DNA of 64,000 nucleotides from Nitrospirales bacterium LBB_01 (GTDB lineage Bacteria; Nitrospirota; Thermodesulfovibrionia; Thermodesulfovibrionales; Magnetobacteriaceae): assembly GCA_004376055.2 (NCBI GenBank), contig CP049016.1, positions 186,001 to 250,000 of the forward strand. The letters run 5' to 3'. Both the position numbers and the translations under genes were made by a program. How positions within the stretch are numbered: position 1 is the first letter of the stretch; every line of letters begins with the position of its first letter. The notes beneath the pieces are model-generated. The model had not been told where the DNA came from, searched no databases, and saw only the letters and a list, made by a program, of their open reading frames with translations. Below, one piece after another: positions 53,837-58,125 of this stretch.

Positions 53837-53877
53837 AAAAAAAAAGAGGGTTTTTGTACAGCAACCCTCTTTTTTTA
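53837..53877. terminator. Bidirectional Rho-independent terminator
   Basis: An 8 bp stem AGAGGGTT/AACCCTCT (53845-53852 and 53863-53870) is flanked by an A run on the left and a T run on the right. On the minus strand it ends the dsrC-M-K-cytochrome operon right after the cytochrome gene, separating it from ilvE. Confidence 0.85.
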
Positions 53878-53899
53878 TGACTATGTTGTTAAGGTAAAC

Positions 53900-54418
53900 T
53901 TACTTATCAATTTTCCTTATGTTAGCGTTTAAATGGCACTTATTACAGAAATTATCCGGCTCAATGTGACAGGCAAGACACTCATCAAGCTTAGCCTTTC
54001 CGGTAATAATGTAAGTGTCATGTGTGTAGCGCCATTCATTTGGCGGCATATGGTAGTCAGGCGCAGGAATGTCTTTATTTACCTCAAGACCAAGTACCTC
54101 ATTATAAGGCTTGTCAACAGAGACTTTAGGAGCGCCGACATATTCGTGGCACTTGTTACAAAAGTTTTTTGGCTCTGTGTGACAGGGCAGACAAGCATTT
54201 TGCGGAATCTGCCCTGATTTAAGCAGATTCATATGATTTTTTCTTACATTGGAGGTTGGAACATGGTACCACGGCAAAAGATTAACATTCGCAGGCACCG
54301 TAAGGGCATACTCACCAGCGCCGTTAGCGGCAGGCGGCTCCTGTTTGGAGCAAGCGGAAATCGCAAACATTGCCGCCAATATGGCAAATAACAGAATTAT
54401 CTTCATTGAGCTTTTCAT
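53900..54418 (-). CDS. Tetrahaem cytochrome c lipoprotein of the Dsr module (DsrJ-like)
   Basis: A 172 aa periplasmic cytochrome. The signal peptide has a lipobox-like AISAC, so it is probably a lipoprotein. Four CxxCH sites occur as two repeats: CLPCHTEPKNFCNKCH and CLACHIEPDNFCNKCH. Canonical DsrJ has three haems, one with an unusual Cys ligand; here no Cys remains outside the haem and lipobox sites. Its position directly after the DsrK-like gene (start one base after the K stop) argues it takes the DsrJ place, but a TmcA-like origin is possible. No dsrO or dsrP follows. Confidence 0.82.
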   Translation of the reverse strand: MKSSMKIILLFAILAAMFAISACSKQEPPAANGAGEYALTVPANVNLLPWYHVPTSNVRKNHMNLLKSGQIPQNACLPCHTEPKNFCNKCHEYVGAPKVSVDKPYNEVLGLEVNKDIPAPDYHMPPNEWRYTHDTYIITGKAKLDECLACHIEPDNFCNKCHLNANIRKIDK

Positions 54419-56014
54419 CTATATGCCCTCCTTCGCTCCAAGCACTATGGCCCGTCCCACAAGTTGGTGAATTCCACCTACCTCCTCCATGGCTATACCA
54501 TAGGTGGGAAACATTTTACTCAGCTGTGCCTTACATATGGCACAAATCAGGGCTACAAAGTTTACACCCTTTTCACGCTTGGCATACGAATATGCCTGCA
54601 TACGAGGAATGGCGCCCTTAACTCTGGTAGCTATCATATCGTCGCCCAAAAGTCCCTGACCGGCACCGCAACAGAACGTCCTTTCCTTAATTGTATTCTC
54701 CGGCATATCTTCAAAGCGATTACACACACCGCGTATTACTCCACGTGGGATTTCAAACTGACCATACTTTGTGCCGCCCATCTCAAGCCCTCTTGCTACC
54801 TGACATGAGTCGTGCATTGTGACCACAAACTCATCGTTTGCCGTCTTGTCAATTTTTAAGGCCCCGCGGTTTAGCAAATCCAAAGTAAACTCGCATATAT
54901 GCTGAGGACGAGGATATCTGGAATCAAGCCAGTCAAACGGACCAAACATCGTGTTACTGTATGAGGAGAGCACTCTCCACATGTGGCCGCACTCGCCGCC
55001 GATTACCCGTTTTACTTTCAAATCACGGGCTGCCTCCCAGATACGTTTATTAATCTTTTTCATATTTCCATAGTTATGCACAAACATGCCAAAATTGCCG
55101 CCCTCTGAGGCATGTGTGCTCATAGTCCAGCTAATACCGGCCTGATGAAACACCTTTGCATAGCCATACAGTGATTCTATGTGAGGGGATGCAAAGAAGT
55201 CGGCAGAAGGAGTAACAAACAGCACGTCCGCTCCTTCTTCATCTATCGGTATCCTTATGTCAGGAATCTCAGTTGTCTCCTGCAGCTCATCCTGCACAAA
55301 TTCAAGCGCATTAACAATTGCATTTTGCTGCATACCAAGGTTGTTTCCAATGTTTTGGGCTTTGTCAATAATCTCATGCATGTACTTTTGCACAAGCCCC
55401 ACACTGTTTAGAATCTCTCTTGCCGCCATTGTGATTTCAGCCGTATCGATACCAGAAGGGCAAAATACCGCACACCGCCTGCACTCCGAACACTGATAAA
55501 AATACGTGTACCACATGGCAAGCAACTCTTCACTTAAGTCGGAGCCGTTAACAAATTTGCTCCCAAGCAGCTTTCCCTGCCATGTGAAATATCTGCGATA
55601 CACTTTCCGCATTAACTCGGCACGAGCCACAGGCATGTTGTTTGGGTCAGCGGTTCCTATAAAGTAGTGGCATTTATCTGTACACGCTCCGCACCGTACA
55701 CATATATCTAAGAAAAGTTTGACTGAGCGGTACTTTTTCAAAATCTCGTCCATCTTTTTCAGAAAGACTTCTTTCCAGTTTGGAACTAGGCCGCCAATGG
55801 GATACCCTAACCTCTGAAGAGGTTCTATCGCCGTTAGGAGCTGTGGTTTCACATCTATGAAAGAATTCGGCTTTATGCACGGAACTTTTATTTCGCCAGT
55901 TAACTCTACTGGCTTTTCTTTTATCTTGACATATTTAATCAGCGCCTGAACACGTGCATTGGCATCATTTGCGTCTCCCTGAGCGCTGCTGTCGGTAGTT
56001 TTATCATCAGCCAT
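54419..56014 (-). CDS. dsrK: DsrK-like HdrD-family iron-sulfur protein
   Basis: Cytoplasmic catalytic subunit thought to act on DsrC disulfide/trisulfide, 531 aa. Two 4Fe4S motifs, CVRCGACTDKC (about residue 106) and CSECRRCAVFC (about 174), precede the HdrD-like CCG region with GGECGHMW, HDSCQVARG, CCGAGQGL and ICAICKAQL, which would bind the non-cubane cluster. The length resembles DsrK of Allochromatium. It follows dsrM by 18 bases. TmcB is the main alternative. Confidence 0.9.
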   Translation of the reverse strand: MADDKTTDSSAQGDANDANARVQALIKYVKIKEKPVELTGEIKVPCIKPNSFIDVKPQLLTAIEPLQRLGYPIGGLVPNWKEVFLKKMDEILKKYRSVKLFLDICVRCGACTDKCHYFIGTADPNNMPVARAELMRKVYRRYFTWQGKLLGSKFVNGSDLSEELLAMWYTYFYQCSECRRCAVFCPSGIDTAEITMAAREILNSVGLVQKYMHEIIDKAQNIGNNLGMQQNAIVNALEFVQDELQETTEIPDIRIPIDEEGADVLFVTPSADFFASPHIESLYGYAKVFHQAGISWTMSTHASEGGNFGMFVHNYGNMKKINKRIWEAARDLKVKRVIGGECGHMWRVLSSYSNTMFGPFDWLDSRYPRPQHICEFTLDLLNRGALKIDKTANDEFVVTMHDSCQVARGLEMGGTKYGQFEIPRGVIRGVCNRFEDMPENTIKERTFCCGAGQGLLGDDMIATRVKGAIPRMQAYSYAKREKGVNFVALICAICKAQLSKMFPTYGIAMEEVGGIHQLVGRAIVLGAKEGI

Positions 56015-56032
56015 TATATGTTTTAACCTCCT

Positions 56033-56797
56033 TTAAGAATTATCCCAGGGATTGACGTGTTTGACGTCTCTTGGGTTGTTAACCATGTTCCTTGTCGGGC
56101 TGAAGAAGTAACCGGCAGAGTGCATCAACTTGCTGAACGGGAAATACATAAGTAAAAAGCAGACGAGGCTTAGGTGACACATAAAGACAACGTTACCTGG
56201 CGCCACAGCCGGATGCATACCCAACATGTGAAGCGGAGCCTTGACGTCCATAAGCTCCATAACAAACCTGTTAACGGCTACAATGTCCGGCCTGAAAGGT
56301 TCATGACGCAAAAGAATTCCTGTAAACACTATGCCAATTATCACAAGGAGTACAAAGTAATCGGCAAGAGAAGTTACATAGGCTGTCCTCTCATCTAAAG
56401 CCCTTCTGATAACAAGCAATACAAGGGATAAGAGGAGTACAACAGACAAAAACATGGCTGCGCCCCCTAATGCCACTATGCACTCCGGTACCGGATGTAT
56501 GAAATACCTTAAATGCCGAATAATCATCAATAGGAAAGTGAAGTGGAAAATCCACCCGGTTATAAACAGAAACGTCGTTCCCTTAGACAGACTTCTAAAA
56601 AATAACACGTCCCCTGCCATCCTCAATATTACACCTGAAAGGGTGGTTGGCTGTGGTGTTTGCGGTATTTTCAGAGGTTGAGGCGTCTTGTAGTATTCAC
56701 AATAGACCTTATAAATGAACCCTAAGGCGAATACGGAACAGCCAACATACACGATTGTGTTCATGTACATATTCATTATAAATGTTATGCCCGTCAT
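56033..56797 (-). CDS. dsrM: DsrM-like membrane cytochrome b (NarI-like)
   Basis: Inner-membrane dihaem cytochrome b, 254 aa with about five to six helices. GWIFHFTFLLMIIRHLRYF supplies His ligands, with others in VFMCHLSLVCF. The short length is like DsrM of sulfur oxidisers (about 250 aa) rather than the longer proteins of some sulfate reducers. It would exchange electrons between the quinone pool and DsrK. A 113-base gap with a hairpin separates it from dsrC. Confidence 0.88.
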   Translation of the reverse strand: MTGITFIMNMYMNTIVYVGCSVFALGFIYKVYCEYYKTPQPLKIPQTPQPTTLSGVILRMAGDVLFFRSLSKGTTFLFITGWIFHFTFLLMIIRHLRYFIHPVPECIVALGGAAMFLSVVLLLSLVLLVIRRALDERTAYVTSLADYFVLLVIIGIVFTGILLRHEPFRPDIVAVNRFVMELMDVKAPLHMLGMHPAVAPGNVVFMCHLSLVCFLLMYFPFSKLMHSAGYFFSPTRNMVNNPRDVKHVNPWDNS

Positions 56798-56838
56798 CGC
56801 ACGATCCTTACTTTGAATAGATTTTTACTCTAACTGAA

Positions 56839-56865
56839 AGCGCCTGATAGAAACTACCAGGCGCT
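56839..56865. promoter_or_regulatory. Intercistronic hairpin between dsrC and dsrM
   Basis: An 8 bp perfect stem AGCGCCTG/CAGGCGCT with an 11-base loop, not followed by a T run on either strand. It could stabilise the dsrC message end or attenuate read-through into dsrM. Confidence 0.5.
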
Positions 56866-56910
56866 CCTTTACTCTGTCACAGTGCTAAAACACACGCCCT
56901 GCTGTTTTTT

Positions 56911-57246
56911 TTATACGCAGCCGGTAGGCTTAGGAAGACCAGCATAACGACACGCCTGCTTTGCAGGACCATCTGGAAACAACTGATACAGGTACTTGGT
57001 GTTGCCCTTGTCTGCACCCATCGTCTTTTTAATCTCCTTGACCAATATCTTAATCATAGGAGCTATCTGATACTGCTGATAGTACGACCTTAAAAAATTA
57101 ATGACCTCCCAGTGCGCATCTGTCAAATCAAGGCTGTCCTCTGTGGCCAACATCTTTGCCACACCCTCAGACCAGTCATTTAGGTTTGTCAGATACCCAT
57201 CCTCGTCAAGCTCTATGCTCTTACCATCACAACTAATTGAACGCAT
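56911..57246 (-). CDS. dsrC: DsrC sulfur-carrier protein
   Basis: A 111 aa DsrC. Both functional cysteines are present on the C-terminal arm: Cys99 and penultimate Cys110, ten residues apart (ACRYAGLPKPTGCV), the hallmark of true DsrC rather than TusE, which has only the last. DsrC carries sulfur to or from sulfite reductase and is the substrate of DsrMK. GGAGG ribosome site upstream. It leads the dsrM-dsrK-cytochrome genes. No DsrAB is in the window. Confidence 0.95.
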   Translation of the reverse strand: MRSISCDGKSIELDEDGYLTNLNDWSEGVAKMLATEDSLDLTDAHWEVINFLRSYYQQYQIAPMIKILVKEIKKTMGADKGNTKYLYQLFPDGPAKQACRYAGLPKPTGCV

Positions 57247-57363
57247 ACAAAACCTCCTGCTTTTTTAAATTAAACTCCGGGAAACTCCCTATTTTTCACA
57301 GTTGTAAATTTGTCCGGTACGATTACCCCTTAAACCTTAATATACCACTGAGGACATCGTCAA

Positions 57364-57399
57364 ATAAAATAAATTGATATGTTTATCAATTTATTTTAT
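57364..57399. promoter_or_regulatory. Perfect 16 bp-arm AT-rich palindrome upstream of dsrC
   Basis: Arms ATAAAATAAATTGATA and its exact complement flank TGTT. It lies 118 bases before the dsrC start and 39 bases after the zinc-ribbon gene stop. It could be an operator for the dsr operon or a weak terminator of the upstream operon; there is no T run. Confidence 0.6.
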
Positions 57400-57437
57400 C
57401 ACAAGCAAAACCAAAGCCCTGCAGCCTCTAAAACCAC

Positions 57438-57815
57438 CTAATCCTTCAACTTTAAAAACAGCATGTTGCCATTTTTTTCATACGGCCCTCTGCCATTTGT
57501 CTTAGACGACAGTGTGTGTGTCTGGGGAACATAGCTTAAATAAGTGCATGAGTAGTCCACATCCTCAGTCAGTGAAAGTGCTAAATCCCAGTCCTCTTTG
57601 CACGCATAAGCAAGGGCGTCCATAAATGCATTACCCATATCTTTTTGTGTGGGGTCATGCACATAGACAGCGCCACAGCTGCACTGTCCGCCAGTAAAAG
57701 AGCCAAGTAAGGTAGGCACATTCTCAGGTCTCCCGAAAAACTGCCTGCAAAACGGACACCTTGGTTCAGTCAGAACACTTTTGTCCTCTCTTATTTTATT
57801 ACCAAAACGCGCCAC
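57438..57815 (-). CDS. Zinc-ribbon protein of unknown function
   Basis: A 125 aa protein with an N-terminal zinc ribbon (RCPFCRQFF then QCSCGAVYVHD) and an alpha/beta remainder. GTG start 2 bases after the HNH stop codon region. I do not recognise it; the conserved-looking DALAYACKEDWDLALSL segment suggests a folded domain. It is last in the rpsF operon. Confidence 0.65.
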   Translation of the reverse strand: MARFGNKIREDKSVLTEPRCPFCRQFFGRPENVPTLLGSFTGGQCSCGAVYVHDPTQKDMGNAFMDALAYACKEDWDLALSLTEDVDYSCTYLSYVPQTHTLSSKTNGRGPYEKNGNMLFLKLKD

Positions 57816-57819
57816 CTTG

Positions 57820-58125
57820 TTACACCAATGACTCCATGCCTTTCAGTCTTTCCATATACTCAGTCCAGTCAACTGTTAGCTGAGAATTTTTCTTGGTGTT
57901 ACAGTTTCTACAGGCGGCCACAATGTTTTCCCGTGCTGACATGCCGCCCTTTGAAAGCGGTATCAAGTGGTCCATGGTAAGCTCGGTGGCAGGGAATTTG
58001 AGGCCGCAGTAGTAACAGACGCCATCAGTGAGTTTCCTCATCCACCATCGTGTTTTTCTTAACCTTCGCGCCTTCTCTTTCTCACGTTTTGCAAAATCCT
58101 CATGAGAAAGCAACAACTTTCTCAC
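57820..58125 (-). CDS. HNH endonuclease family protein
   Basis: A 101 aa HNH protein with CYYCGLKFP and CRNCNTKK zinc pairs and the MDHLIPLSKGG core. The N-terminus is very basic (KREKEKARRLRKTRWW). GTG start overlapping the DUF507 stop (GTGA). Role unknown; not part of an obvious phage or restriction locus. Confidence 0.88.
   Translation of the reverse strand: MRKLLLSHEDFAKREKEKARRLRKTRWWMRKLTDGVCYYCGLKFPATELTMDHLIPLSKGGMSARENIVAACRNCNTKKNSQLTVDWTEYMERLKGMESLV

Follow-up and report, generated by a model that had tools for sequence, protein, structure and literature searches.

A dsrC-dsrM-dsrK operon with a duplicated DsrJ-like cytochrome, probably acting in place of DsrMKJOP in a Nitrospirota bacterium

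A first-pass annotation read the locus described here as a Dsr module of DsrC, DsrM, DsrK and a tetrahaem cytochrome without adjacent DsrO or DsrP, which raises the question of whether it is a fragment of DsrMKJOP, a relative of another complex, or an electron-transfer unit in its own right. The window (the whole stretch of 64,000 nucleotides that was analysed, G000:C1:186001-250000; 42.5% GC) belongs to a closed genome of 3,273,455 bases. The organism, apparently Ca. Magnetomonas plexicatena LBB01, has been described as a magnetotactic member of the Nitrospirota with a complete circular chromosome of 3.27 Mb and 42.0% GC, for which dsrABC, dsrEFH, aprAB and sat are reported (PMC9376291); the host is probably magnetic.

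The ORFs of the window and family searches bear out the annotated gene content: dsrC, a short dsrM, dsrK and the tetrahaem cytochrome are four genuine genes on the same strand (Table 1), and the start codon of the cytochrome directly adjoins the stop codon of dsrK, with zero gap. The strong terminator claimed to follow the cytochrome is also present, as a 14-bp hairpin with a U-run (z -3.05), which a simple consensus terminator scan overlooks because its loop exceeds 8 nt; beyond it lies the unrelated ilvE. No dsrO or dsrP thus adjoins the operon, and their presence just beyond 53837-57246 is ruled out. Between dsrC and dsrM, a strong stem-loop whose stems in relatives differ in sequence yet still pair, when compared by eye, suggests a candidate conserved processing, attenuation or partial-termination element; the inverted repeat upstream of dsrC is a possible operator.

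Two further genes lie next to the operon. The first, encoding a Cys-rich protein with the motif CPFC...GGxCxCGAVYV and no Pfam family, is an uncharacterised dsr-linked gene: relatives occur upstream of dsrC (L200:3166-4143, L103:10542-11597, L107:5182-5616), in Nitrospirota dsr clusters of either type, and are sometimes fused to a DVU0298-family domain. The second (57820-58125) encodes a small stand-alone HNH protein resembling the HNH part of IscB/Cas9, and is conserved beside the dsr operon within the genus.

Table 1. Features of the dsr operon and its upstream flank (window positions).
Feature	Position	Strand	Description
terminator	53839..53876	-	strong hairpin and U-run 3' of the cytochrome
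tetrahaem lipoprotein cytochrome	53900..54418	-	two tandem DsrJ-like dihaem units
dsrK	54419..56014	-	HdrD-like Fe-S subunit of the oxidative-type lineage; sole DsrK of the genome
dsrM	56033..56797	-	254 aa; short oxidative-type, NarI-like dihaem-b membrane subunit
stem-loop dsrC/dsrM	56837..56867	-	14-bp stem; paired though altered in relatives
dsrC	56911..57246	-	sole DsrC of the genome; both C-terminal cysteines
inverted repeat	57363..57400	-	17-bp, AT-rich, upstream of dsrC
Cys-rich protein	57438..57815	-	no named family; many dsr clusters of Nitrospirota have a relative between dsrN and dsrC

The three core proteins retain the residues that electron transfer to or from DsrC would use, in agreement with the initial reading of DsrC, DsrK and a short DsrM. 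DsrC (PF04358, 1e-46) ends in ...QACRYAGLPKPTGCV, with both cysteines intact; DsrK exceeds the cut-off of its family (NF045796, 549.5 bits against 400) and has all of its Fe-S and CCG cysteines; DsrM stays under the cut-off of NF038037 (162 bits against 300), which is still its best family, scoring close to the DsrM of a sulfur oxidiser (161.6 and 171.5 bits, against 537 for a canonical DsrM), and its four haem-b histidines are invariant across 30 sequences that include canonical and sulfur-oxidiser DsrM. The intact haem ligands, cluster cysteines and DsrC cysteines therefore make a core path from quinone through haem b and Fe-S clusters to DsrC credible. Searches of PDB sequences returned no relative of DsrK or DsrM, and for the cytochrome a weak haem-protein match only. 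With dsrC, dsrM and dsrK, two C-terminal cysteines in DsrC and no dsrO or dsrP, the locus has the make-up of a JOP-less DsrMK module; it shares with DsrMKJOP the DsrK family and the haem-b histidines of DsrM, and has neither a trihaem DsrJ with its cysteine nor O and P in the operon.

DsrK and DsrM fall outside the ordinary DsrMKJOP of the phylum. In a tree of 72 DsrK rows, which contains no archaeal or Desulfurella references and whose oxidative side is sampled by similarity to the query, a split with 100/100 support separates canonical Nitrospirota DsrK from a group that unites this type of DsrK with those of Pseudomonadota sulfur oxidisers, Nitrospinota, Actinomycetota and Desantisbacteria; the DsrM tree has the same main split (SH-aLRT 100). 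As judged from these trees and the family scores, both subunits belong to the oxidative-type lineage of sulfur oxidisers, and neither to Tmc nor to the reductive DsrMKJOP of Nitrospirota. The Tmc-like relative that had been offered as an alternative, in which electrons would move among quinone, a tetrahaem cytochrome in the periplasm and a partner in the cytoplasm, has in its favour the common cofactor plan of HdrD-like, NarI-like and tetrahaem cytochrome subunits, and weak TmcB and TmcC matches. These matches lie far under the cut-offs (205 against 735 bits, and 25 against 240), DsrK is above its own, dsrC lies within the operon, the cytochrome is DsrJ-like, and K and M group with DsrMK; a Tmc-like identity is rejected on the family scores, and kinship with Tmc is highly improbable.

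The cytochrome has four CxxCH motifs and a lipobox-like ISACS, read from the sequence, by which it is probably lipid-anchored. Its match to the DsrJ model NF038038 is weak (41 bits against a cut-off of 100), and the 98.5% obtained in profile-profile comparison with DsrJ is inflated by CxxCH, as are profile matches among multihaem cytochromes generally; kinship with DsrJ also agrees with an HM motif and with the place downstream of dsrK. Canonical Nitrospirota DsrJ follows the pattern KQC...MRxEHM...CMxCH...FCDxCHNY..VKPYCWDCH. The simple form of the cytochrome, of ~100 aa, reads YHxP..W...HM...ECLxCHxEPDxFCNxCH.Y.GxKK; it has two CxxCH, lacks the third CxxCH and the KQC-type cysteine, which we take to be the His/Cys haem ligand of DsrJ from the Allochromatium work, and carries an N-terminal lipobox-like Cys where canonical DsrJ has an N-terminal hydrophobic segment. 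This dihaem unit is doubled in Ca. Magnetobacteriaceae and in G146, and the two halves of the protein align with a score of 121, whereas 300 CxxCH-preserving shuffles gave no more than 82. On these comparisons the cytochrome is a DsrJ-related dihaem unit, tandemly duplicated, without the third haem site or the conserved cysteine.

Whether the cytochrome belongs to the module at all bears on a simpler alternative, in which it is unconnected and DsrMK alone transfers electrons between quinol and DsrC, as in JOP-less archaea and Gram-positives. Such JOP-less systems are already known (PMC10504309), and in two lineages (G012/G045 and G006) no cytochrome follows K. In most loci where downstream sequence is present, however, a di- or tetrahaem cytochrome comes directly after K with no O or P behind it, abutting or overlapping K in six families (f1, f2, f3, f13, f15, f24), and this DsrJ-like cytochrome is nearly absent from Nitrospirota otherwise. 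An unconnected cytochrome is thus improbable.

The cassette recurs across the phylum. Among 396 Nitrospirota genomes there are two types of DsrK: the present one (58-95% identical), found in ~31 genomes, and the canonical one (~49%), which has DsrP within a few kb and accompanies the present type in only ~8 of those ~31. DsrA was found in 30 of the 32 genomes searched and in all but two of the 31 with this type of K. One genome, 100% complete, has dsrC-dsrM-dsrK and a dihaem cytochrome, yet no DsrA match (G004, L105); DsrC and DsrMK stand there without a sulfite reductase. The order dsrM-dsrK-di/tetrahaem cytochrome, often with dsrC, is repeated in many Nitrospirota without O or P. Six compact clusters (L103, L104, L107, L108, L118, L206) have the order dsrA-dsrB-dsrD-dsrN-(Cys-rich)-dsrC-dsrM-dsrK-cytochrome, with tusA and dsrEFH on the opposite strand and O and P in none of them; in L204, from the family to which L206 belongs, dsrTMKJOP fills the slot between dsrN and tusA/dsrEFH. 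The two electron-transfer cassettes, sharing a slot, thus substitute for one another. By gene neighbourhood, an O/P-less cassette of DsrMK with a di- or tetrahaem cytochrome is widespread in Nitrospirota, often within complete clusters running from dsrABDN and dsrC to tusA/dsrEFH.

Family and protein searches of the closed genome find a single DsrC and a single DsrK, both in this operon, and no second, canonical dsrMKJOP; dsrAB lies at 2.165 Mb with a DsrD-like ORF of 74 aa, QmoC is present above its cut-off, and two DsrE-family genes are paired at 0.536 Mb. The site where the canonical operon would lie is recognisable and empty. In G062, dsrTMKJOP stands between an nrfD-like gene and a gene for a 772-aa regulator; the same flanks, 84-85% identical, are here 209 bp apart, against ~6.4 kb in G062; G326 is filled ahead of this regulator and G096 is empty, so that two sister species keep dsrTMKJOP where this genome has none. 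The canonical DsrK of five family members form one clade (99/97), which fits an ancient presence of dsrTMKJOP with losses, or a gain in the sisters. G310 keeps canonical dsrTMKJOP, and its K of the present type is a long branch with neither dsrC nor cytochrome adjacent. The best reading of the site is that a slimmed DsrMK-cytochrome version took the place of the standard DsrMKJOP.

DsrO and DsrP might still be supplied in trans, from genes that would make the complex complete though scattered. Of three NrfD-family proteins in the genome, the one at 2.807 Mb exceeds the cut-off for DsrP (412 bits against 350); it lies in a set (G000:C1:2807211-2809977, L010) with a DsrO-like protein that nearly reaches its own (188.5 against 200) and a tetrahaem cytochrome. 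Cable bacteria offer a precedent, with dsrTMKJ and a distal dsrOhPh-tetrahaem locus, although the authors themselves doubt that the latter joins DsrMKJ and suggest that it may serve another process (PMC13047784). The remote DsrP-like protein, however, forms a separate DsrP clade (~42% identical to canonical DsrP), and the set is common in genomes without this type of K and missing from three with the cassette: no DsrP-family protein is found at E<=1e-20 in G146 (96% complete, tetrahaem) or in G003 and G013 (96-97%, dihaem). In family members, moreover, this set adjoins another cytochrome-FeS-NrfD set, of the L011 type, far from it in this genus; the L011 set itself lies at 972694-975280. Distribution and neighbourhood thus give no support to the remote genes as partners, and a split DsrMKJOP is unlikely; the set is treated as a separate complex resembling dsrOhPh, apparently unconnected to the DsrMK-cytochrome module.

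We therefore regard as likely a self-sufficient DsrMK complex linking quinone and periplasm to DsrC, in which a tetrahaem lipoprotein derived from DsrJ substitutes for DsrJOP and which acts instead of dsrTMKJOP. The partners of DsrM, with its two b-haems, would be menaquinone and/or carriers in the periplasm, the latter reached by way of the cytochrome, which would lie on the periplasmic side and give electrons an added entry or exit there; DsrK, in the cytoplasm, would exchange electrons with the DsrC cysteines (trisulfide/dithiol), and DsrC would serve the reductive-type DsrAB-D of the genome. The link between DsrC redox chemistry and a periplasmic cytochrome that the first-pass annotation had proposed is thus plausible, given the gene content and the position of this DsrMK as the only one in the genome. 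Cues to the direction of flow conflict, a DsrD-like ORF and reductive-type DsrAB standing against oxidative-lineage DsrMK and DsrEFH; the balance tips slightly towards sulfur oxidation or disproportionation rather than sulfate reduction, which is also how this organism's genes have been read previously (PMC9376291).

O/P-less DsrMK and DsrMKJ are already known. PMC10504309 describes JOP-less DsrMK in archaea and some Clostridia, and oxidative-type DsrMK in Desulfurellales and Ca. Acidulodesulfobacterales; these likewise combine DsrC with DsrMK without O or P, and the Desulfurellales type may be of the same lineage as the present module, differing in that no dedicated DsrJ-like cytochrome is described in the part of that source covered. 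The cable-bacterial arrangement is similar in its MKJ locus without O/P and its distal O/P-like tetrahaem locus, but has a reductive-type MKJ with DsrT, whereas here an oxidative-lineage MK accompanies a remodelled cytochrome (PMC13047784). With the oxidative-type DsrMKJOP of sulfur oxidisers the module shares the DsrK/DsrM lineage, the short DsrM and the link to DsrC; it differs in having no dsrO or dsrP, in a DsrJ pared down to a dihaem unit that has neither the third CxxCH nor the conserved Cys and is doubled to four haems, and in occurring with reductive-type DsrAB and a DsrD-like ORF. The DsrTMKJOP of other Nitrospirota (Thermodesulfovibrio type) holds the same pathway position and at times occupies the same slot of the cluster in related genomes, but has the ~49% identical K, a longer DsrM, a trihaem DsrJ, O, P and DsrT. 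In the main texts of the open-licence papers searched we found no di- or tetrahaem DsrJ variant, no such duplication and no replacement or empty-site evidence.

In the proposal that the module is a reduced DsrMKJ-type unit, "reduced" is uncertain, because K and M sit in an oxidative-type lineage whose O/P-less members are apparently basal. With the DsrK tree rooted between its two sides, O/P-less Nitrospirota form a basal grade within which O/P-bearing operons are nested; a single clade for the 28 core O/P-less rows is not rejected (AU p 0.0575), and the basal-grade reading is therefore tentative. The topology fits that of Neukirchen et al. (PMC10504309), where lineages that combine reductive DsrAB with DsrMK only take a basal position in oxidative-type DsrK, and O/P may never have been present in this lineage. 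A further possibility, which we consider less likely than not, is that the O/P-independent respiratory complex of DsrMK with a DsrJ-like di/tetrahaem cytochrome is widespread and of a kind separate from DsrMKJOP, that either can replace the other within the same pathway, and that oxidative-type DsrMKJOP evolved from this stage.

These considerations bear on the roles of DsrJ, DsrO and DsrP and on the possible energy conservation of DsrMKJOP through them. Close species with dsrTMKJOP and the module, against the module alone, and complete Dsr clusters with a swapped cassette, amount to natural knock-outs; if the complex works as proposed, a DsrC-linked complex can do without the conserved cysteine, the third haem and both O and P. 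The module bears equally on the origin of the oxidative-type Dsr pathway.
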